Of a stretch of 38,957 bases of DNA, positions 2,956-16,446 are shown piece by piece. The stretch is taken from IMG/VR virus record IMGVR_UViG_3300045994_000190, positions 1 through 38,957 of that record, one strand, 5' to 3'. The position numbers were made by a program, and so were the translations under genes. This DNA comes from a virus. Numbering within the stretch: position 1 is the first letter of the stretch; each line of letters opens with the position of its first letter. The notes under the pieces were generated by a model. It did not search any database, was not told where the DNA came from, and saw only the letters and a program-made list of their open reading frames with translations.

Positions 2956-5322
2956 ATGGAAGGGCTATCTTTAAATAGAATACCGATAGAGTTAAAACAA
3001 AGAAAACAATGGTGTATATCTCTTGAAAACAAAGCTCCTTTATCATCAACTGATGGCAAAACCCTTTTTACTATATCCGTAACTGATCCTACATATTGGT
3101 TGGATTTTACATCTGCTGTTTATTTATCTAAAAAGTTTGACTGTAATTTTGGATATATTTTACACGCTGATGATCCATTTACTTGTATTGATTTGGATGT
3201 TATTGATGAAGAATCACAATCTCGTAAAGGTCAACCAATTGATTCTTCAAAATGGTCAACTCAAGATCATTTTGATAGGTATTGGAAGATAATAACACAA
3301 TGTAATTCATATACAGAAACTTCTAAAAATAAAAAGGGTTTTCATATATGGGTAAAAGGTAAGATTGGTAATGGGTTAAGACGTGATGGTGTTGAGATTT
3401 ATAGCCAAGAGCGATATATAATTTGTACTGGTAGCACAATTCTTAATCGTGGTCTTAATGATTGTCAGGATATTTTAAACTCTCTTGCATCTCAAATACG
3501 ACCTATTTCAACTAAAATAATTCTTGAAGAAGTTGAAGAAGAATTTACTGATGCTGAAATAGTAAGCAAGGCTTTAGCAGCTTCAAATTCTGAGAAATTT
3601 AATGATTTATGCAATGGTAATTTTTCATCCTACCCTTCACAATCAGAAGCTGATTTAGCATTAATGTCTATGTTTACTTTTTATTCTAAAAGTAATGAGC
3701 AATGCAAAAGATTATTTAGATATTCAGAATTAGGTAAGCGCGAGAAGGCAATACGGGATGATAAATATCTAAACAATAGCCTTAGAACTATAAGAAGTAG
3801 GGAAGCCAATGATAAGGTAGTTTCCGATTCTGCAACTGCTATTGCAATGAACTTAGTTTCTCAACTGCAAACACAAAGAAGAACAAGTGAGTTTCTTCAT
3901 AGTGACCACAATATAGTTGATGAAGAACAAGAACCTTCCTTAGTAACTGCATTCTCAGAAATTACAGTTAAATCTCCTCCTAAAACTAATGATGGTTTAG
4001 AGTGGCCTCCTGGTATTGCTGGTAAAATTGCTTACCACATTTACATGTCCTCGCCCAGACCAGTTAAAGAAGTTGCTATTGTGGCTACGCTTGGCCTATT
4101 GGCTGGCATTGTTGGCAAGTCATGGACAATAACTCAGTCTGGGCTTAATATGTACATGATTCTAATAGCTAGGTCAGGTGTAGGTAAGGAAGCTATGCAT
4201 AGTGGTATTTCTAACTTAGTTCACCACATTGCAAAGAATACTGTTCATATTGAAGATTTTATTAGCTTCTCTGATTTTGCTTCTGGTCAAGCACTAATCA
4301 ATAAAATATCAACCAATCCTTGTTTATTAACTATTTCAGGGGAATGGGGACGAAAGCTTCAAAGATTAGCTGCTGATGATGGTAGGGATGCAGCGATGCA
4401 ATCTTTAAGAACTGTAATGACAGATTTATATCAAAAGTCTGGCCCTACTTCTATAGTTGGAGGTATTGATTATGCTAAAAAAGATAATAATATTGCTTCT
4501 GTTTCAGGTGTTGCTTATTCAATGATAGGTGAAACAACGCCCGATACATTCCACGAATGTCTTACTAATTCAATGATGTCTGATGGTTTTCTTTCTCGGT
4601 TTAATATGGTTTCTTATGATGGTGAACGACCGCCATTAAATAAAGATAAAATAATGGAACCTGATGCTGTAATGGTTGACTTTCTTGTTGATCTTGTAAA
4701 TCAATCAAAAGAGCTAAGTGAGAAGAATAATGTAATTCATGTTGAACGAGATGAATTTGCAGCAAAAATAATTTCTGATTTTGAAATAGAATGCGATAAT
4801 AATATTAATGGTTCCCAAGTTGAAGCATGGCGACAAATGTGGAACCGAGCTGCTTTAAAGGTTCTTAAATTAGCAGCTATATTAGCTGTGGCTGATAATA
4901 GTGCATTTCCGACAATACGAGACTTTCATTTAAATTGGGCTTTAAGTTTAGTTAGAAAAGACATTAAGCTTATGATATGTAAAATGGAAAGTGGGGATAT
5001 TGGTGTTAATGATTTATCAAGAGAACTTAAAGTTATTGAGATTATTAAATATTATCTTTTAAATGATTTGCCTGATAGTCTAAAAACTTTCAAAAAAATG
5101 AAAGATGAGAATATAATAACTAGAAAGTATATTCAACAGAAGATAAGTAACATTAATAGCTTTACCAAGCATCCCCAAGGAGCTATTGCCGGTTTTAATT
5201 CCACGTTAAGGTCAATGATTGATAGTGGATACATAATAGAATTAAGTAAAGAAGAATTAGTAACGTCATTTGGATTCCATGGAAAAGCATATCGAGTTCT
5301 CGACTTAAAAAATACTATTTAA
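2956..5322 (+). CDS. Primase-polymerase fused to DUF3987-type helicase
   Basis: 788 residues. The N-terminal part resembles the archaeo-eukaryotic primase (AEP/PrimPol) domain of phage NrS-1-type enzymes: DxD in CIDLDV (D79, D81), a catalytic-type His in GFHIWVKG (H130), and a basic strand near R153. A helical-bundle linker follows at about 230-285. The C-terminal half (about 345-650) is a DUF3987-like P-loop ATPase with Walker A ARSGVGKE at 405-412, where Glu replaces the usual Ser/Thr. Together these would prime and unwind DNA at the replication fork. The ATG at 2956 is preferred to a TTG at 2938. It is co-directional with the ligase, nuclease and helicase genes downstream. Domain calls are from motifs and order. 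Confidence 0.8.
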   Translation: MEGLSLNRIPIELKQRKQWCISLENKAPLSSTDGKTLFTISVTDPTYWLDFTSAVYLSKKFDCNFGYILHADDPFTCIDLDVIDEESQSRKGQPIDSSKWSTQDHFDRYWKIITQCNSYTETSKNKKGFHIWVKGKIGNGLRRDGVEIYSQERYIICTGSTILNRGLNDCQDILNSLASQIRPISTKIILEEVEEEFTDAEIVSKALAASNSEKFNDLCNGNFSSYPSQSEADLALMSMFTFYSKSNEQCKRLFRYSELGKREKAIRDDKYLNNSLRTIRSREANDKVVSDSATAIAMNLVSQLQTQRRTSEFLHSDHNIVDEEQEPSLVTAFSEITVKSPPKTNDGLEWPPGIAGKIAYHIYMSSPRPVKEVAIVATLGLLAGIVGKSWTITQSGLNMYMILIARSGVGKEAMHSGISNLVHHIAKNTVHIEDFISFSDFASGQALINKISTNPCLLTISGEWGRKLQRLAADDGRDAAMQSLRTVMTDLYQKSGPTSIVGGIDYAKKDNNIASVSGVAYSMIGETTPDTFHECLTNSMMSDGFLSRFNMVSYDGERPPLNKDKIMEPDAVMVDFLVDLVNQSKELSEKNNVIHVERDEFAAKIISDFEIECDNNINGSQVEAWRQMWNRAALKVLKLAAILAVADNSAFPTIRDFHLNWALSLVRKDIKLMICKMESGDIGVNDLSRELKVIEIIKYYLLNDLPDSLKTFKKMKDENIITRKYIQQKISNINSFTKHPQGAIAGFNSTLRSMIDSGYIIELSKEELVTSFGFHGKAYRVLDLKNTI

Positions 5323-5821: not shown

Positions 5822-5992
5822 ATGGCTAAATTACAGGTTAAAATAACAAGATCGTATAATCTTACGCTTGACGATACTGAACTTAAGTTTCTTAAGAACT
5901 ATCTTCAAAATCCACTTTATGATGATGAATCCGAGCAGGATTTATTAACTAGAAAAACCATTTGGGAAGCTTTGCCAAGGATTGAATCATGA
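5822..5992 (+). CDS. Small hypothetical protein (56 aa)
   Basis: 56 residues. The ATG at 5822 follows the previous stop by 4 nt; in-frame upstream codons lie inside the previous gene and are rejected as a start. The protein has a basic N-terminal strand and an acidic C-terminal half. Its stop overlaps the ligase ATG (ATGA). No family recognised. Confidence 0.5.
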   Translation: MAKLQVKITRSYNLTLDDTELKFLKNYLQNPLYDDESEQDLLTRKTIWEALPRIES

Positions 5993-6942
5993 AACCTTTA
6001 TTAGCCACAGATGCAATTGAAGATAAAATTAAGTTTCCTTGCTATGTGCAGCCTAAGATTGATGGTGTGCGTGCCATTAATATTGACGGTAAACTGGTAG
6101 GACGTAGCTTAAAAACCCACAAGAATAAGTATGTGACTGGCTTTTGGTCACATGAAATTTTTAATGGATTTGATGGTGAACTAATATTAGGATTTAATTG
6201 TACTGCCGAAAACCTTTGTTCTAATACAAGTAGTTTACTTTCTACAATAGTGCAAGCTGAATACACAAAATGGTATGTTTTTGATCTTATAAATGATGAA
6301 CTTAAAAATTTACCGTATTTTGATAGATTAAATTTACTTAGAAATCAAGTTGATTATGTAAAATCAAATTATTCCGCACTTGAATCTGTTATTGAAGTTA
6401 TACCAACTTTTACGTGTGAAAATCTTAAGCAACTTTTGGATTATGAACAAGAGTTTTTGGACGCTGGTTATGAAGGAATTATAATAAGGGATATTAATGG
6501 TAAGTATAAATTCGGTAGGAGTACAGTAAAAGAAGGTTTACTTCTTAGAATAAAAAGATTTATTGAAGAAGAGTGTATTGTTATTGGAATAACTGAGGGT
6601 GAAACTAATAACAATGAGAAGCAGACTAATGAATTAGGGAAGTCATTTAGATCGTCCCATGCAGAAAACAAAGTTTTAAATGGTATGATCGGAAACCTAA
6701 CATGTCAGGCAACCAAAGATATTTATAATTTAAAACCTAATGAAGATCAATTATTATTTCCCAAAGGGTTTGAATTTACAGTTAGTCCTGGCTCTTTAAA
6801 TCACCAACAAAGAAATTATTATTTTGAGAACCCTAATGAAATTCTCGGTAAGGTTATTAAGTTTAAATTCTTTCCTAAAGGTATAAAAGATAAACCAAGG
6901 TTTCCTAACTTCGTATCGTTTCGCTCAAAAGAGGATATGTGA
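5989..6942 (+). CDS. ATP-dependent DNA ligase
   Basis: 317 residues. The covalent nucleotidyltransferase motifs are in order: motif I KIDG with Lys23 as AMP acceptor, motif III DGELIL (about 62-67), motif IV EGIIIRD (162-168) and motif V LLLRIKRF with Lys189. A shorter OB-fold-like C-terminus follows. Size and motifs fit the small T7-like phage ligases that seal nicks after lagging-strand synthesis. It overlaps both neighbours (ATGA at the start, TGATG at the end), so it is part of a tightly coupled replication operon. Confidence 0.87.
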   Translation: MKPLLATDAIEDKIKFPCYVQPKIDGVRAINIDGKLVGRSLKTHKNKYVTGFWSHEIFNGFDGELILGFNCTAENLCSNTSSLLSTIVQAEYTKWYVFDLINDELKNLPYFDRLNLLRNQVDYVKSNYSALESVIEVIPTFTCENLKQLLDYEQEFLDAGYEGIIIRDINGKYKFGRSTVKEGLLLRIKRFIEEECIVIGITEGETNNNEKQTNELGKSFRSSHAENKVLNGMIGNLTCQATKDIYNLKPNEDQLLFPKGFEFTVSPGSLNHQQRNYYFENPNEILGKVIKFKFFPKGIKDKPRFPNFVSFRSKEDM

Positions 6943-8934: not shown

Positions 8935-9858
8935 ATGTATTATACTCAAGATCCAATTACAACAAATCATATTTATCTAGCTACTAAAACAATGAATGCC
9001 ATTGAAGAAGCTATTAATAAAGATCAAGGTTCAAAATTCCGTGAACTAAGTGGGATTGTTTTACCACATATAGGCGATGCCTATAGTCCTGATAATACTC
9101 CTTTTAGAAGTCACATGGGAGCCTCTGTAATAGGAGGTCATTGTGCTAGAGAAATATGGTATAGTTTTAGATGGTTTACCCGTCCTAATCATACTGGACG
9201 TTTATTAAGGCTATTTAATCGTGGTCACTTAGAAGAAGGTAGATTTATAGCTGCATTACTTACTATAGGTTGCCAAGTTTTTCAGCAAGACTCAAATGGT
9301 AAACAATTTAAAATAAGTGCTTCCAATGGTCACTTTGGTGGTAGTGGTGACGGAATAGTTTACGGTATTCCTGATTGTCCTGAACAGTATATGCTATGTG
9401 AGTTTAAGACGCATGGTGAAAAATCTTTCACAGAATTAAAAAAGAAAGGTGTTGCAGTAGTAAAACCAGAACATGTAGTTCAGATGAATATTTATATGGA
9501 AAAAATGAAAATTCCATTATGCCTATATGGGGCTGTAAATAAAAATACAGATGAACTTTATTTTGAGATAATTATTGCTGACAAAGAACTTGCAATTGCT
9601 AAATTAGAATTAGCTGATACTTTAATTGCAATGCAAAAACCTCCAGACAAAATAAGTAAAACTTCTGCTTATTATAAATGCAGATTTTGTGACCATAGAC
9701 CAGTTTGTTTCTTTGGTGCAGAGCCTGACCACAATTGTAGAACTTGTGTCCATAGTCAACCTATAGAAAATGCAGAATGGATATGTGGTTTTACTGGTGA
9801 AATTCTTACTAAAGAAAAACAATTAGTAGGATGTGATGTTCATAATTCAATTAAATAG
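8935..9858 (+). CDS. PD-(D/E)XK nuclease, Cas4/RecB-like
   Basis: 307 residues. The core has GHLEEGRF (a helix with conserved Glu), GSGDGIVYG (metal-binding Asp), CEFKTH (ExK) and QMNIYM (Gln/Tyr of the RecB motif), the order seen in Cas4/RecB-type PD-(D/E)XK nucleases. The C-terminus holds several cysteines (CRFCDHRPVC, then CRTC and two more), which could bind Zn or an Fe-S cluster as in Cas4. In phage replication modules such enzymes resect DNA ends. The neighbours (RecA-like ATPase, SSB, SF2 helicase) fit a recombination or end-processing role. Metal type cannot be told from sequence. Confidence 0.75.
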   Translation: MYYTQDPITTNHIYLATKTMNAIEEAINKDQGSKFRELSGIVLPHIGDAYSPDNTPFRSHMGASVIGGHCAREIWYSFRWFTRPNHTGRLLRLFNRGHLEEGRFIAALLTIGCQVFQQDSNGKQFKISASNGHFGGSGDGIVYGIPDCPEQYMLCEFKTHGEKSFTELKKKGVAVVKPEHVVQMNIYMEKMKIPLCLYGAVNKNTDELYFEIIIADKELAIAKLELADTLIAMQKPPDKISKTSAYYKCRFCDHRPVCFFGAEPDHNCRTCVHSQPIENAEWICGFTGEILTKEKQLVGCDVHNSIK

Positions 9859-9867
9859 GAGAATAAG

Positions 9868-10005
9868 ATGACTTGTTGGCATACAGCAGAAACACCACAA
9901 AATATTAGGCCAAGTAAACCACTACAAGAACAATATGACGATCTTAGAAAAAAGATACATGAGATTGAAATATTGATTGAGAATGAAACTGATAAAAGCA
10001 ATTAA
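9868..10005 (+). CDS. Small hypothetical protein (45 aa)
   Basis: 45 residues, AGGAG at 9857-9861 just upstream of ATG 9868. The second half is a charged helix (LRKKIHEIEILIENE), possibly a coiled coil. It overlaps the next small gene by 23 nt. Function unknown. Confidence 0.45.
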   Translation: MTCWHTAETPQNIRPSKPLQEQYDDLRKKIHEIEILIENETDKSN

Positions 10006-10111
10006 ACGATTGGATAAAGCTGTAACGTTGCTTAAAGTTGGGGCTAAAATTATTAAGAAAGTTCTTAAATCTCAAGGTTATGAGAACTTAAAACCAGAAT
10101 TTAATATGTAA
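9983..10111 (+). CDS. Small basic amphipathic-helix protein (42 aa)
   Basis: 42 residues, very lysine-rich, with a continuous amphipathic helix (KLIKAIKRLDKAVTLLKVGA). It overlaps the preceding small gene by 23 nt in another frame, with only a weak GATTGAG upstream. Plausible but unproven. Confidence 0.35.
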   Translation: MKLIKAIKRLDKAVTLLKVGAKIIKKVLKSQGYENLKPEFNM

Positions 10112-10161
10112 ATGTGTTAAGAGAATATTTAAACTACAAACATAAAAATAGAGAACCCAAG

Positions 10162-11919
10162 ATGATAGAACCTAGATACTACCAAATTGATTGCTTAAAC
10201 GCCATTTTTAAATATTTTGAGAATGGTGGTAGAGGAAATCCTATTTGTGCAGTAGGTACAGGTTTAGGAAAATCTGTAATCATTTCAATGTTCTTAATGA
10301 AAGCTTTTTACCTTTACTCAAATCAGAAAGTTTTAGTTTTGACTCATGTAAAGGAATTGATAGACCAGAATGCTAAAGAACTTCTTGGTATGTGGCATAC
10401 TGCGCCTATTGGAATTAATTCATCATCTTTAAATCAGCGTGATATTGATAAGAAAATAATCTTTGCTGGTATTCAATCAATCTATAAAAATGCTGCTGCT
10501 TTTGGAAAAATAGATTTAATAATTATTGATGAATGTCATCTTATTTCAGATAATGATGAAACCATGTATAGAATGTTTATTGATTTTCTTTTAACAATTA
10601 ATCCTCGACTTAAAGTTATCGGGTTTACAGCTACTCCTTGGAGGCAGGGTTTAGGTTTACTAACAGAAGGAAATTTATTTACAGATTTCTGTTATGATAT
10701 AACCGATATGCAGTCTTTTAATAAAATGATTACGGAAGGTTATTTATGCCCTTTAATTCCAAAGAAAACAAATTATCAATTAGATTTAAGTGGAGTTAAA
10801 TTAGGTCAAGATGGTGATTTTGCTAAAGGACAGTTACAGTTAGCTGTTGATAAACATTCTATAACTCTGGCTGCTCTTAAAGAAACTTGTGAATTAGCTT
10901 ATGATAGGAATTGTTGGTTAATTTTTGCATCGGGAATTGAACATTGTGAACATATAGTAGAAATACTTGAAGAACTAGATGTAAGTGCTACTTGTATTCA
11001 TTCAAAGATTAAAATTCAAGAACGTGATGAACGATTTAGGTTATTTAAAACAGGTAAGATAAAAGCATTGGTTGGATTTAGAGTTATGACTACTGGGTTT
11101 AATCACCCTCCTATTGATACAATTATCGATTTATATCCTACAACATCATCCAGTATGCATGTTCAAAAATATGGACGGGGAACTAGACCTTATGATTGGT
11201 TAGATCCTCAACAATACAAAGCGGGATTTGATTACACAAAAGAAAATACTTTAGTGCTAGACTTTGCTGGTAATACCGCAAGGCTTGGCCCTATAAATGA
11301 CCCTGTTATCCCTAAGAAAAAGGGGCAAGGTAAGGCGGGAAGCGCACCAGTTAGGCTTTGCCAAGTATGTAACTGCTATAACCATGCTACAGCAAGAATT
11401 TGTATATATTGTGGTGCAGAATTTACTATGCAAGTTAAGATAAATGATAGTGCAGGGACATTAGAATTAATTAAACAGGATATACCTGAATTTCAAGAAT
11501 TCAAAATAGATCAAATGACTTATGCCAAACATACAAAACAGGGAGGCAAAACAAGTCTAAAAGTAACATATTATTGTGGCTTAAGACACTTCACTGAATA
11601 TGTGGGTATTGAACATACAGGTTATCCTAAGAATAAAGCTAACGACTGGTGGCAAGCAAGAACAGGTTTTTCATCCCCTGACAGTGTTTTAGCAGCTTTA
11701 TATTTAGTAGATTCATTACGAACTCCTAGTCATATTAGAGTTTGGATAAATAAAAAATACCCTGAGATAGTTGACCACATATTTACAAATACAGTAGTTC
11801 CTATAATAAAGGATATATCAAATGAAGATGAAATAGATTTTGTTCCTTACGATGATTCAATACCTTTTGATACCTTAAAAGTTTCTAATTATATTGATGA
11901 TCAAGAAGTCCCGTTTTAA
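10162..11919 (+). CDS. SF2 DNA/RNA helicase with zinc ribbon
   Basis: 585 residues from ATG 10162; a GTG at 10114 would add 16 basic residues. Superfamily 2 motifs in order: a Q-like YYQIDCL, Walker A in VGTGLGKS, DECH box (IIIDECH), motif III GFTATPW, and a C-terminal RecA lobe with TTGFNHPP and the arginine-finger motif YGRGTRP. A four-cysteine zinc ribbon (CQVC, 15 residues, CIYC) follows the helicase core, and then a strand-rich C-terminal domain of about 150 residues. This is the type III restriction/RecG-like DEAD/H layout common in phages for fork remodelling or replication restart. It is the last gene before putative promoter P4. Confidence 0.85.
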   Translation: MIEPRYYQIDCLNAIFKYFENGGRGNPICAVGTGLGKSVIISMFLMKAFYLYSNQKVLVLTHVKELIDQNAKELLGMWHTAPIGINSSSLNQRDIDKKIIFAGIQSIYKNAAAFGKIDLIIIDECHLISDNDETMYRMFIDFLLTINPRLKVIGFTATPWRQGLGLLTEGNLFTDFCYDITDMQSFNKMITEGYLCPLIPKKTNYQLDLSGVKLGQDGDFAKGQLQLAVDKHSITLAALKETCELAYDRNCWLIFASGIEHCEHIVEILEELDVSATCIHSKIKIQERDERFRLFKTGKIKALVGFRVMTTGFNHPPIDTIIDLYPTTSSSMHVQKYGRGTRPYDWLDPQQYKAGFDYTKENTLVLDFAGNTARLGPINDPVIPKKKGQGKAGSAPVRLCQVCNCYNHATARICIYCGAEFTMQVKINDSAGTLELIKQDIPEFQEFKIDQMTYAKHTKQGGKTSLKVTYYCGLRHFTEYVGIEHTGYPKNKANDWWQARTGFSSPDSVLAALYLVDSLRTPSHIRVWINKKYPEIVDHIFTNTVVPIIKDISNEDEIDFVPYDDSIPFDTLKVSNYIDDQEVPF

Positions 11920-11948
11920 AATTATTTTTAATTTACTGAAAATAACGC

Positions 11949-11979
11949 TTGCAAAGAAGTATAATAGTGTTAATATAAC
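11949..11979 (+). promoter_or_regulatory. Putative promoter P4
   Basis: The AACGCTTGC context contains TTGCAA (11949-11954). Possible -10 boxes are TAATAT (11971-11976, 16-bp spacer) or TATAAC (11974-11979, followed after 6 nt by GTTTAAATTTA as at 5361). It lies in the short gap upstream of the Lys/Ala-rich protein gene. Confidence 0.4.
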
Positions 11980-12024
11980 CATGCTGTTTAAATTTATTTT
12001 TTCTTACCCACTGAGGATATTACC

Positions 12025-12762
12025 ATGCCAGAACAAACACAATCTGAATCAGAATTAGCCAACCTTCAATCGTTGATGGACGGTGAAACTCAAGAACAAT
12101 CTAATATCGTAAGTTTGGAACCTGCGGTTATTGAATTGGAACCTGCTGTTAATACCGTTGTCGAAGATAAGAAAACCAAAGCTGCTGCGGCCAAAGAAGC
12201 TAAAGCGGCAGAAGCTATAGCTAAGGCAGAAGCCAAAGCTATAGCTAAAGCTACAAAAGATGCAGAAAAATTGGCTGCAAAAGAAGCCAAAGAAGCGGTT
12301 AAAGCGGCTAAGGTTGAGAAGCCTGTTAAAGAAGCTCGCATTATTCAAAATGGTATCTCAACACCAGCATCTGAAACTACTTGCGGGCAAATTTGGGCGT
12401 TCTGTACAAGTATCTCAAATAATAAGGGTGCTTTAGTAACTCGAAAAGAGTTAATTGAAAGTCCATTACTTGCAGAATTCAATCCAATTACAATTGGTGT
12501 TCAATATTACAAATGGAAAACCTTTCACGGTTTAAAAGACATTAAACCGACGGCTGAAGAACTTGCTGCAAAAAAGGCAGAAGCGGAAGCAGAAAAAGCT
12601 AAAGCTAAAGCTGAAAAGGATGCTAAGGCTGCGGAAGCTAAAGCTAAAAAGGCTGCTGATAAAGCTGCTAAAGATGCAGAGAAGGCAGAAAAAGCTGCTA
12701 AAGCTGCACAGGATAAAGCTGATAAAGAAGCTGAAAAGTTGGCTGCGGCATCTACTGAATAA
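12025..12762 (+). CDS. Lys/Ala-rich helical protein with central domain
   Basis: 245 residues in four parts. An acidic N-terminus (1-50) is followed by a long Ala/Lys/Glu helix (about 50-100), a compact domain (about 103-178; PASETTCGQIWAFCTSIS to YYKWKTFHGL) and a second Ala/Lys/Glu helix to the end. The helices resemble histone H1-like or single-alpha-helix tails. The central domain resembles a recurrent phage domain in which a QYxxWxxFHGL-type end is conserved; its function is not known to me. A DNA-binding or nucleoid-associated role is an inference from charge and repeats. GAGGA precedes the ATG, and a hairpin terminator follows the stop, so it may be a single-gene transcript. Confidence 0.6.
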   Translation: MPEQTQSESELANLQSLMDGETQEQSNIVSLEPAVIELEPAVNTVVEDKKTKAAAAKEAKAAEAIAKAEAKAIAKATKDAEKLAAKEAKEAVKAAKVEKPVKEARIIQNGISTPASETTCGQIWAFCTSISNNKGALVTRKELIESPLLAEFNPITIGVQYYKWKTFHGLKDIKPTAEELAAKKAEAEAEKAKAKAEKDAKAAEAKAKKAADKAAKDAEKAEKAAKAAQDKADKEAEKLAAASTE

Positions 12763-12778
12763 CTACTTTTCGGTTTAA

Positions 12779-12803
12779 TAAGGGGATAGCAATTATCCCC
12801 TTA
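12779..12803 (+). terminator. Hairpin terminator upstream of queE
   Basis: TAAGGGGATA (12779-12788), loop GCAAT, TATCCCCTTA (12794-12803): a perfect 10-bp stem. The downstream T-tract is poor (ACTTGTTCT), so it may be leaky, letting some transcription into the modification island. Confidence 0.6.
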
Positions 12804-12832
12804 ACTTGTTCTCTATGACACACAAGGTTAAT

Positions 12833-13525
12833 ATGAATACTCAATCCCCAGAAAAAATTATCAATGACGATACTATGTTATCGGTTCATTCTATATTCCC
12901 AACAATTCAAGGTGAAGGACCATTTTCTGGTCATGCTGCTGTTTTTATAAGATTAGCTGGTTGCAATCTTCAATGTCCATTATGTGATACTGACTATATA
13001 AAAGGTAGACGTAATTATACATCTTTGGAAATTCAAAAGGAAATTTCTAAAGTTACATTCGACTATCCTGAAATTAAATTGGCTATAATTACAGGAGGTG
13101 AACCATTTAGACAAAATATTCTTCCTTTAGTTAATAGATTATTAAATATTGGTTTTATAGTTCAAATCGAGACAAATGGAACAATATGGCGAGAGTTACC
13201 TTATTGGAATTCTAATCTACATATTATTTGTAGTCCTAAAACAACATTAATTAATAGTAGATTAGCTAAAGAAGTTTCTGCATTTAAATATGTAATTGAC
13301 CACAATAATTTGAATGATAATGGGTTTCCGCTAAAAGCTCTTGAGCATGTTAACTCTGGTCATTTATACCTAACTAATGATGATAGAATTCCAATTTACA
13401 TTCAACCTGCTGATGTTAAAAGCGTAGTTGAGAATGCAAAAAATATTAATGCTTGTAAAGAACTTGTTATGAAATACGGTTATATTCTTTGCTTGCAAAT
13501 TCATAAAATTATAGGAGTAGAGTAA
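12833..13525 (+). CDS. queE: 7-carboxy-7-deazaguanine synthase QueE (radical SAM)
   Basis: 230 residues. The start at 12833 is chosen because AAGG lies 5 nt upstream; ATG 12815 and TTG 12806 also read in frame. Residues 24-29 (TIQGEG) and the radical-SAM cysteines C44, C48, C51 (CNLQCPLC) bind the 4Fe-4S cluster, and ITGGEPF is the SAM-contacting GGE motif. QueE converts 6-carboxy-tetrahydropterin to 7-carboxy-7-deazaguanine. It is the third step from GTP to preQ0 and is here the first gene of the island. Its stop overlaps the next start (TAATG). Confidence 0.92.
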   Translation: MNTQSPEKIINDDTMLSVHSIFPTIQGEGPFSGHAAVFIRLAGCNLQCPLCDTDYIKGRRNYTSLEIQKEISKVTFDYPEIKLAIITGGEPFRQNILPLVNRLLNIGFIVQIETNGTIWRELPYWNSNLHIICSPKTTLINSRLAKEVSAFKYVIDHNNLNDNGFPLKALEHVNSGHLYLTNDDRIPIYIQPADVKSVVENAKNINACKELVMKYGYILCLQIHKIIGVE

Positions 13526-13701
13526 TGTCAAATCCTAATGAAACAATAATGAATAAGCTTGCTAGATTAAATCTTTATGATCTAGCAGCTAAAAAATTTA
13601 TCAAAAAGGTTGATAATAAAGAAGCAAGATCAATTGTTACCTATAATGATCTTAAAGAAGCATTAAACTTAAATAAGGATGGAAGTAATGAAAAAATCTA
13701 A
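13525..13701 (+). CDS. Small hypothetical protein (58 aa) between queE and queC
   Basis: 58 residues, starting in the TAATG overlap with queE and running 14 nt into queC. AGGAG at 13512-13516 serves as its ribosome site. It is helical and basic (NKLARLNLYDLAAKKFIKKV). No domain recognised. Its coupling to both queE and queC suggests co-expression, not necessarily a role in the pathway. Confidence 0.55.
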   Translation: MSNPNETIMNKLARLNLYDLAAKKFIKKVDNKEARSIVTYNDLKEALNLNKDGSNEKI

Positions 13702-14470
13702 AGCATTAGTAGTATTATCTGGCGGTCAAGATTCAACCACATGTTTATTCTTGGCTAAATTAAAGTATGATGAAATCCATGCAATAACTTTTGACTATGG
13801 ACAAAATCATTCAATTGAAATTGAATCGGCATTAAATGTTGGTTCCCTAGCTAAAGTTTCTTCTCACGAAGTAATAAATATTCCTTATATTTTAAAATCA
13901 GCATCCCCTTTAACAAACAACGGGGCTGATCTTGAACGTTATGAAGACGCAGACCAAATGGAAAAGGTTATAGGTTCTCGCATTGAAAATACATTTGTTC
14001 CAATGAGAAATACATTGTTCCTTACTATAGCAATGAATAGGGCTGTAGCATTAGGTTGTGATGTTGTGGTTATCGGGATTTGCCAGGAAGACAATGCAAA
14101 TTATCCCGACTGTACTGAAGATTTTAAAAACTTCTTTGAAACAATGGCTAATATATCATTAGGAACTTATACAAAGAATTTAAAAGAACTTTTGATTGAT
14201 GCTCCTTTACTGCACTTATCAAAAGCAGACACTGTTAAGATTGCACACAGTATGCCTGAGTGTTGGCACGCATTAGGCTTTAGCCATACAAGCTATGACG
14301 GCAAATATCCACCTATTGATATGAATCATGCAAATGTGTTAAGAGCTAAGGGTTTTGAAGATGCTGGTTTACCAGATCCTTTGGTTACACGGGCTATAAA
14401 TGAAGGGTTAATGGATATTCCAGAAACTTCAAACTATGATAGTTTACGTTTAGATTATCTTAAAGATTAA
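13688..14470 (+). CDS. queC: 7-cyano-7-deazaguanine (preQ0) synthase QueC
   Basis: 260 residues. The PP-loop ATP pyrophosphatase motif SGGQDS is at 11-16, with FDYGQNH at 35-41 and VPMRNTLFLTIA at 104-115, all typical of QueC. It makes preQ0 from 7-carboxy-7-deazaguanine and ammonia with ATP. The C-terminal region (residues 189-222; ECWHALGFSH, then H214) has only one Cys, C192, so the CxxC-type zinc cluster of the E. coli enzyme is not present. ATG 13688 has AAGGA at 8 nt; ATG 13679 would add three residues. It is followed by a displaced queD start and an HNH gene. Confidence 0.92.
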   Translation: MKKSKALVVLSGGQDSTTCLFLAKLKYDEIHAITFDYGQNHSIEIESALNVGSLAKVSSHEVINIPYILKSASPLTNNGADLERYEDADQMEKVIGSRIENTFVPMRNTLFLTIAMNRAVALGCDVVVIGICQEDNANYPDCTEDFKNFFETMANISLGTYTKNLKELLIDAPLLHLSKADTVKIAHSMPECWHALGFSHTSYDGKYPPIDMNHANVLRAKGFEDAGLPDPLVTRAINEGLMDIPETSNYDSLRLDYLKD

Positions 14471-14479
14471 GGACTAATA

Positions 14480-14533
14480 ATGCCTAAATATCAAGTTAAA
14501 AGATACCATGATATTAGTTGTAACTTGAGTTAA
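14480..14533 (+). pseudogene. Orphan 5' end of queD, displaced by HNH gene
   Basis: A 17-codon reading frame with AAGGA upstream, 9 nt after queC. Its middle, VKRYHDIS (14495-14518), matches residues 10-17 of intact queD (VKRYHDFS, 15129-15152) codon by codon, with silent differences. After the match it diverges and stops at 14531-14533. This looks like the original queD start, cut off when the HNH gene entered. Joining it directly to queD at TTAGTT would give a complete, canonical QueD N-terminus. It may still be translated as a leader peptide. Confidence 0.6.
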
Positions 14534-14587
14534 CCATAATAAGTGTTTATAGTTACATGGCAAACCATAACTTTATAGGCATTTAAA

Positions 14588-15121
14588 ATGGCAACATTAA
14601 ACGCAAGAAATATAGTTATAATTTCTAAACCACCAGAACGAGATTATATCTATAAAGATGTTAAAATAAAAAGTAATATTTTTAGAATTTTTGAAGATGG
14701 TGCGGTTTGGGATATGAATAATTCAAAATGGAGAAAACCTGATATTGATAAAAACGGTTATAGAATTTTAAGTCTTGGTAACTATACAACTAAACTTCAT
14801 AGACTTATTCTAACTGTATTTCAAAGATCACCTACTCGCTGTGAACAAGGACGACATTTAGATGGAGATCCGTCTAATAATGATAATTCAAATTTATGTT
14901 GGGGAACCAGTAAACAAAATTGGATTGATAGAAAACTTCACGGTAGGGAAGGCGCTGAATGGCGTAGACTTTTAAGTAGCGAGGATGCCTTAAAAGTCTT
15001 CAATGACCCTAGACCTGACAACGATATAGCAAAGGAATATAAAATACAACGAATTTGTGTAGCTTTAATTAAAGAAAAATTAACATACAAGGATATTCAT
15101 AATGAACCAATGCAAGTTTAG
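14588..15121 (+). CDS. HNH homing endonuclease
   Basis: 177 residues. The HNH_3-type core is at about residues 76-115: TTKLHRLILTVF (first His), RHLDGDPSNNDNSNLCWGT (second His with Asn-rich loop, then the structural Trp). A C-terminal helix-turn-helix-like part (about 135-175, ending near IQRICVALIKEKLT) would read the DNA target. It lies between queC and queD, overlaps the queD start by 20 nt in a different frame, and is flanked by a duplicated piece of queD. There is too little non-coding sequence (54 nt) for a group I intron core, so it reads as a free-standing mobile endonuclease. Confidence 0.8.
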   Translation: MATLNARNIVIISKPPERDYIYKDVKIKSNIFRIFEDGAVWDMNNSKWRKPDIDKNGYRILSLGNYTTKLHRLILTVFQRSPTRCEQGRHLDGDPSNNDNSNLCWGTSKQNWIDRKLHGREGAEWRRLLSSEDALKVFNDPRPDNDIAKEYKIQRICVALIKEKLTYKDIHNEPMQV

Positions 15122-15590
15122 ATTTATAGTAAAACGCTATCATGATTTTAGTTACGGCCATAGAGTGGTTGGTCATGAAGGGAAGTGCCGTCATTTGCAC
15201 GGACACAACGGGAGGGTTCACTTTCATTGTGTTGCAGATAATAATGAGTTAGATTCTATTGGCCGAGTTATTGATTTTGGAGAAGTTAAAAGCCGTTTAT
15301 GCATGTGGTTAGAAGATAATTGGGATCACAAGTTTTTGGCTTGGGAGAATGATAAAGTTATTAATGGCTTATTTATTTCAACTGAGGAATCTGAATCAGT
15401 ATTATGTACAGATTCATTTAATGAGTTACGAGAATCAATTGTTTTCGTACCATTTAATCCTACGGCTGAAAATATGTCAGAATACCTAGTTGATATAATT
15501 GGGCCACAACAATTACTTGGTACAGGAATTAAATTAGTTTCTGTTACTATTGATGAAACTAGAAAATGTTCGGTGACTTATGGCGAATGA
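15102..15590 (+). CDS. queD: 6-carboxy-tetrahydropterin synthase QueD
   Basis: 162 residues. Zinc ligands are H20, H33 and H35, with the catalytic C29 in the CxxxHGH signature (CRHLHGH). WDHKFL at 74-79 carries the Asp-His pair, and IDETRKC near the end is the conserved Thr/Glu region. It converts dihydroneopterin triphosphate, from FolE, into 6-carboxy-tetrahydropterin. Its first codons are unusual: residues 1-4 (MNQC) are read from the tail of the HNH gene in a shifted frame, so insertion apparently gave the gene a new start. It overlaps folE by 11 nt. Confidence 0.92.
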   Translation: MNQCKFRFIVKRYHDFSYGHRVVGHEGKCRHLHGHNGRVHFHCVADNNELDSIGRVIDFGEVKSRLCMWLEDNWDHKFLAWENDKVINGLFISTEESESVLCTDSFNELRESIVFVPFNPTAENMSEYLVDIIGPQQLLGTGIKLVSVTIDETRKCSVTYGE

Positions 15591-16191: not shown

Positions 16192-16446
16192 ATGGATCAA
16201 ATTCTATTAAAAAGTCTACTTCACTATAACCCTGAAATAGGTTTATTTACAAGACTAACTAATTGTAAATATTCCAATTTATCAACTGGAGTTCTCGGTG
16301 TTTATCTAAGAAAAGATGGTTTTATTTATTTAAAAATTAAAATAAATAGAAAGCAACATCACTTAGGATATTTTAAAACCATAGAGGAAGCTAGTGCAGC
16401 TTACATAAAAGCTAAACGAGAACTGCATCTATTTGGAACTTTGTAA
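16192..16446 (+). CDS. AP2-domain protein, probable HNH endonuclease lacking its core
   Basis: 84 residues. Residues 4-20 (ILLKSLLHYNPEIGLFTRL) resemble the N-terminus of phage HNH-AP2 endonucleases. From residue 31, GVLGVYLRKDG then HHLGYFKTIEEASAAYIKA is an AP2/ERF DNA-binding domain. The HNH residues expected between them are absent, so cleavage activity is unlikely. It fits exactly between folE and dpdA with TAATG-style junctions. It may be a decayed homing endonuclease or an AP2 protein kept as a DNA-binding factor. Confidence 0.65.
   Translation: MDQILLKSLLHYNPEIGLFTRLTNCKYSNLSTGVLGVYLRKDGFIYLKIKINRKQHHLGYFKTIEEASAAYIKAKRELHLFGTL

Follow-up and report, generated by a model that had tools for sequence, protein, structure and literature searches.

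A second queD start beside an HNH endonuclease gene in an uncultured virus: a probable trace of homing

The 38,957-base contig of an uncultured virus that was analysed here (the whole stretch is referred to as the window) raises the question of why the start of one gene, queD, occurs twice, on both sides of a gene for an HNH endonuclease. The genes queE, queC, queD, folE and a dpdA-like gene follow one another in the window, and the interval between queC and queD consists of a 17-codon ORF (14480-14533), 54 non-coding bases (14534-14587) and the HNH gene (14588-15121, plus strand), which codes for a protein of 177 aa with profile matches. The working queD (15102-15590, plus strand) codes for a 6-carboxytetrahydropterin synthase of 162 aa with a complete PTPS domain (E=5.7e-24), and its SD (AAGGA, 15089-15093) and start codon (15102-15104), on the same strand, fall within the final part of the HNH gene. 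The initial annotation had described the last HNH codons as overlapping a new queD start, and the two ORFs indeed have 20 nt in common.

It had also pointed out that the codons for VKRYHDIS recur as VKRYHDFS, and both copies were placed correctly to the base, copy 1 (GTTAAAAGATACCATGATATTAGT) at 14495-14518 and copy 2 (GTAAAACGCTATCATGATTTTAGT) at 15129-15152. The differences between the copies, said to be silent, are mostly so, with the exception of the I/F change. The copies are identical at 19/24 bases, a level that was reached at these two places only in the surrounding 4 kb and in none of 60 first-order Markov shuffles; chance does not yield such a repeat.

The resident queD start and relatives without the HNH gene

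Sequence comparison identifies the 17-codon ORF (14480-14533, plus strand; MPKYQVKRYHDISCNLS up to its stop codon), which has an SD-like AAGGA upstream of it (14469-14473), as the start of the resident queD, left as a stub that is of resident type through 14521, the end of a Cys codon. When the 42 bases of the stub were compared with the queD starts of the fetched loci, L002/L003 and L005/L006 were the best matches (36/42, the next being 30/42), and none of these carries an HNH gene at queD. The queD start of L005 (MSKYQVKRYHDISCGHRV) and the stub (MPKYQVKRYHDISC) show silent differences only from codon 3 onward. In blastn, positions 14479-14521 of the window aligned to L003 3985-4027 (88%), and the window from 15128 aligned to the same L003 gene from 4000, so that one queD sequence of L003 was aligned at both sites of the window. 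A comparison with relatives lacking the HNH gene had been proposed as a check, and these relatives (L002/L003, L005/L006 and L008) have one intact queD start matching the stub. The HNH gene at queD is present in the window and in two further viral contigs, L083 and L061, and absent in L002-L008 and most others. As for the suggestion that the first copy and queD could be joined at TTAGTT, such a join would be in frame, but the shared resident sequence extends one codon beyond that point, through the Cys codon TGT (14519-14521).

Other unrelated genes are located between queC and queD in relatives (L002 3274-3993; L005 about 3343-4000; L059 3338-4005), and the queC-queD junction is thus a common insertion place. 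A contig from another metagenome, L082, is 100% identical to the window at 9679-14046 (4368 bases) and ends within queC.

The HNH gene, its leader and related units

When a profile built from the three HNH sequences was searched against solved structures, I-HmuI (1u3e) was matched with E=1e-7. The protein of the window corresponds to the phrog_59 HNH endonuclease in PHROGs (4e-22), and its Pfam HNH_3 score of 23.1 bits is just below the cutoff of 24.8. The HNH motif is found around HLDGDPSNN..NL.W, and H90, N98 and N102 are invariant across the proteins of the window, L083 and L061. By motif and profile, the protein can be assigned to the I-HmuI-type HNH homing endonucleases. The structure model is moderate (pLDDT 62.6) with three confident C-terminal helices, and the C-terminal helical part is likely, as modelled, a helix-turn-helix.

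In L083 and L061 the HNH gene (66% and 61% identical, respectively) is also situated directly before queD, with the same HNH-queD overlap as in the window, and the sequence AAGGA[TG]AT[TA]CATAATG, in which queD has its SD and start codon, is conserved in all three. Upstream of the HNH gene, L061 has a stub candidate (ATGAGCTGGCAAGCGGAACGA) identical at 18/21 bases to the queD start of L036; it reads MSWQAER and then unrelated codons, while the working queD of L061 starts with MSWTAERYHDFSYGH. Judging from this match, L061 likely holds a second stub of a queD start. No stub was found upstream of the HNH gene in L083, of which the nearest relative without the HNH gene, L101, has the rare allele type described below. 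Scans of viral and genome contigs added no members of the family beyond L083, L061 and one distant HNH gene, in searches that rely on short exact peptide matches and could miss divergent members. Among isolated phages only HNH proteins about 27-35% identical were found, and the two loci inspected were not beside que genes. A query with the DpdA-like protein found no nearer relatives.

The HNH leader (14522-14587, plus strand) contains promoter-like boxes and a hairpin. The boxes, TTGAGT (14525-14530) and, after 17 nt, TATAGT (14548-14553), match at 9/12 positions, although they are weak and the count of such matches was not above that in shuffles. The hairpin (14534-14591; -17.9 kcal/mol) pairs with the HNH start codon, which is paired in all three leaders (z -4.1 in the window, -5.1 in L083 and -1.0 in L061). 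The promoter-like -10 boxes (TATAGT, TATACT and TATAAT) lie in the 5' arm of the hairpin, and a TTG-hexamer precedes each of them at a distance of 17 nt; that of L083 is weak and did not come up in the promoter scan. Leader hairpins that cover the start codon or RBS and carry a promoter in their 5' arm have been reported to control T4 homing endonucleases (PMC2988022). The SD region of queD is unstructured and unpaired in the window, and therefore queD could be read from an operon transcript with the HNH gene silent. The stop codon of the stub (14531-14533) abuts the hairpin, which begins at 14534, and the stub ORF of L061 runs into the hairpin arm, so that ribosomes reading the stub could open the HNH hairpin. 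I-TevI has a homing-site-like operator. By analogy, the stub might have been put to use, its translation opening the hairpin for the HNH gene and half of the target site acting as an HNH operator, but this appears quite improbable.

Further genes of this kind were observed elsewhere in the cassette. An 84-aa ORF between folE and the dpdA-like gene (16192-16446) resembles the C-terminal part of the phrog_99 HNH endonuclease without the HNH motif, and L008 5426-5579 has 85% DNA identity to part of it. L083 has an HNH-like ORF after folE (5846-6448), assigned by reading its sequence and without a Pfam HNH match, and L061 has a GIY-YIG/NUMOD3 gene after queE (1193-1996). The que cassette looks like a hot spot for endonuclease-like genes. 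In the window, a 58-aa ORF without family match is also present between queE and queC (13525-13701).

Allele types in the working queD

Two types of phage queD could be distinguished, a common one with ...[SC][CATV]GHRV...HGHNY and a rarer one with FSYGH...HGHNG. In the window the stub is of the common type, whereas the working queD is of the rare type at its start (FSYGH...HGHNG in place of ISCGH...HGHNY). Tyr before GH was found in 12/12 queD genes with HGHNG versus 0/66 others, in a set of 78 genes that is not a random sample, the rare type having been collected by exhaustive pattern scan and the others by similarity search. The queD genes beside the HNH gene in the window, L083 and L061 all belong to the rare type. 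The possibility that this allele is exclusive to HNH-bearing phages was rejected, as the exhaustive pattern scan found it in others, namely in some nine contigs that lack the HNH gene. In the 78 loci, the residue before GH, Tyr or a small one, and the residue after HGHN, Gly or Tyr (codons 18 and 37 in the numbering of the window), always covary, as though a Tyr had been shifted from one side of the zinc site to the other.

The body of the window queD, on the other hand, grouped with common-type genes, in the protein tree with L003/L008 (100/95) and in the DNA tree with L003/L008/L005 (97), while its 5' part, which is short, was nearest to rare-type alleles. The amino acid sites F16, Y18 and G37 are donor-type, and 9/9 informative sites from codon 53 on are resident-type. 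Judging from these site patterns, the imported part, which carries FSYGH and HGHNG, would extend approximately from 15102 to 15240 (plus strand); its right limit is uncertain, with moderate support for roughly 15213-15246. Codons 20-31 are resident-like at some sites (CAT AGA GTG GT), and therefore the imported part may be patchy. The site counts gave a Fisher p of about 0.02-0.03 for the switch from donor to resident type, but in AU tests of the short stretch of the first 33 codons, grouping with L003/L005/L008 (p 0.15) or with L003/L005 (p 0.24) was not rejected. For this reason the queD start is regarded as likely a replaced allele on a resident-type body, with an approximate right limit. 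No exact donor was found among the contigs searched.

Origin of the arrangement and comparison with known systems

The arrangement was quite probably produced by a free-standing HNH homing endonuclease that moved together with a substitute 5' end for its target queD, the left junction being repaired one-sidedly. An HNH gene of the I-HmuI type, together with its own leader and the 5' part of another queD allele, would have entered the start of queD. The enzyme is thought to nick or cut queD genes without the HNH gene near the codons for SCGH...HGHNY, and the cut or nick would fall near codons 14-15, near TTAGTTGTGGTCAT. Repair would then have transferred the HNH gene and the adjoining altered donor queD start to the recipient by copying. 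On the right side, repair through queD homology would have given a hybrid, complete queD with its SD and start codon within the HNH end. On the left side, the recipient end could have been joined one-sidedly near the break because no usable homology existed there, so that the first 14 resident codons remained as the stub. The stub ends where Cys in one allele stands against Tyr in the other, which is what a break at that codon would leave, and resection to some extent would be needed for the shorter stub of L061. It was reported that T4 intron homing with one-sided homology leads to illegitimate junctions and resection (PMC2988022). This origin is favoured because starts without the HNH gene match the stub, the HNH gene is linked to the allele, and I-HmuI matches and leader hairpins are found. 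The earlier suggestion of a homing event importing an allele from another phage thus gains support, as far as the sequences of L083 and L061 indicate, from their sharing both the HNH-queD overlap and the foreign allele.

Ordinary recombination between co-infecting phages, illegitimate and homologous, in which the HNH protein had no part, would agree with the occurrence of the rare allele without the HNH gene, and mosaicism is common in phages. However, it is unlikely to account for the recurrence of one HNH family at one site in three contigs, each time next to the rare allele, for a stub ending at the codon where the alleles differ, or for the match of the family to known homing endonucleases. 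The HNH protein would rather have cut queD, and the exchange would have taken place by homing. An assembly chimera that combines two queD alleles of a single metagenome might be suspected, since the contig is uncultured and the identical contig L082 ends in queC without spanning the site, yet it is very unlikely given that L083 and L061, which are separate contigs, show the same HNH-queD arrangement with continuous reading frames. Two tandem copies of one gene start could also result from duplication in place and later divergence, with the HNH gene entering between the copies, but the copies differ in allele type, both types have matches in other phages and one of them accompanies the HNH gene in other contigs, all of which makes duplication extremely unlikely. 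An unrecognised intron or bypass, in which the transcript would lose 14519-15155 or the ribosome would pass over this stretch and the stub would be joined to queD, would keep the frame at the shared codons. It can practically be dismissed, as nothing beyond chance matches, and no group I or II core or intron family, emerged when 14300-15400 was scanned with Rfam, the 54 nt of non-coding space are, as had been argued, too small for a group I core, and the working queD, like that of the stub-less L083, possesses an SD, an ATG and a complete N-terminus of its own.

If homing is accepted, neither an intron nor an intein is needed for a selfish endonuclease gene to settle within the coding sequence of a useful gene, since it brings along what it breaks. 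A stub left at the repair junction would also indicate where the cut probably fell, so that the model can be tested directly. The target belongs to the 7-deazaguanine DNA modification pathway, and therefore such elements would also reshuffle anti-restriction alleles.

Free-standing endonucleases of the T4 type (SegB, MobA, MobE and others) are likewise encoded by intergenic or embedded genes, and they show co-converted flanks and, among the HNH enzymes, nicking activity, for which the window has probable counterparts, but they usually cut at a distance and the neighbouring gene keeps its own start, whereas in the window the start of the neighbour is replaced and a stub remains (PMC2988022). 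I-HmuI of Bacillus phage SPO1 (1u3e) matches the window HNH by profile in the HNH domain and the preceding region, but is encoded in a group I intron, while no intron was found in the window. The insertion of mobE in Aeromonas phage Aeh1 split nrdA into two proteins; in contrast, the window keeps one complete QueD protein, because the element supplies the missing part. As in the window, mobE is described as an HNH gene embedded in a metabolic gene and having an RBS hairpin (PMC2988022). In the literature on queD with homing endonucleases, the passages on Vid5 do not describe an arrangement like that of the window. In the open-access papers searched, no replaced N-terminus and no phage case was found, only fungal C-termini. 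These are mobile ORFs of fungal mitochondria that make gene hybrids, as in atp6 of Allomyces and in atp6, atp9, cox2 and nad3 of Glomus (PMC3630166). In these cases, as in the window, an endonuclease ORF lies in a gene and a foreign terminal part takes the place of the resident one, which survives in displaced form and is closer to the sequences of near relatives than its substitute is. The fungal cases concern C-termini, mitochondria and LAGLIDADG or other endonucleases, whereas the window concerns an N-terminus, a phage and an HNH enzyme. As judged by these sequence features, the window belongs with the mobile-ORF gene hybrids of fungal mitochondria in its way of working, not by common descent.
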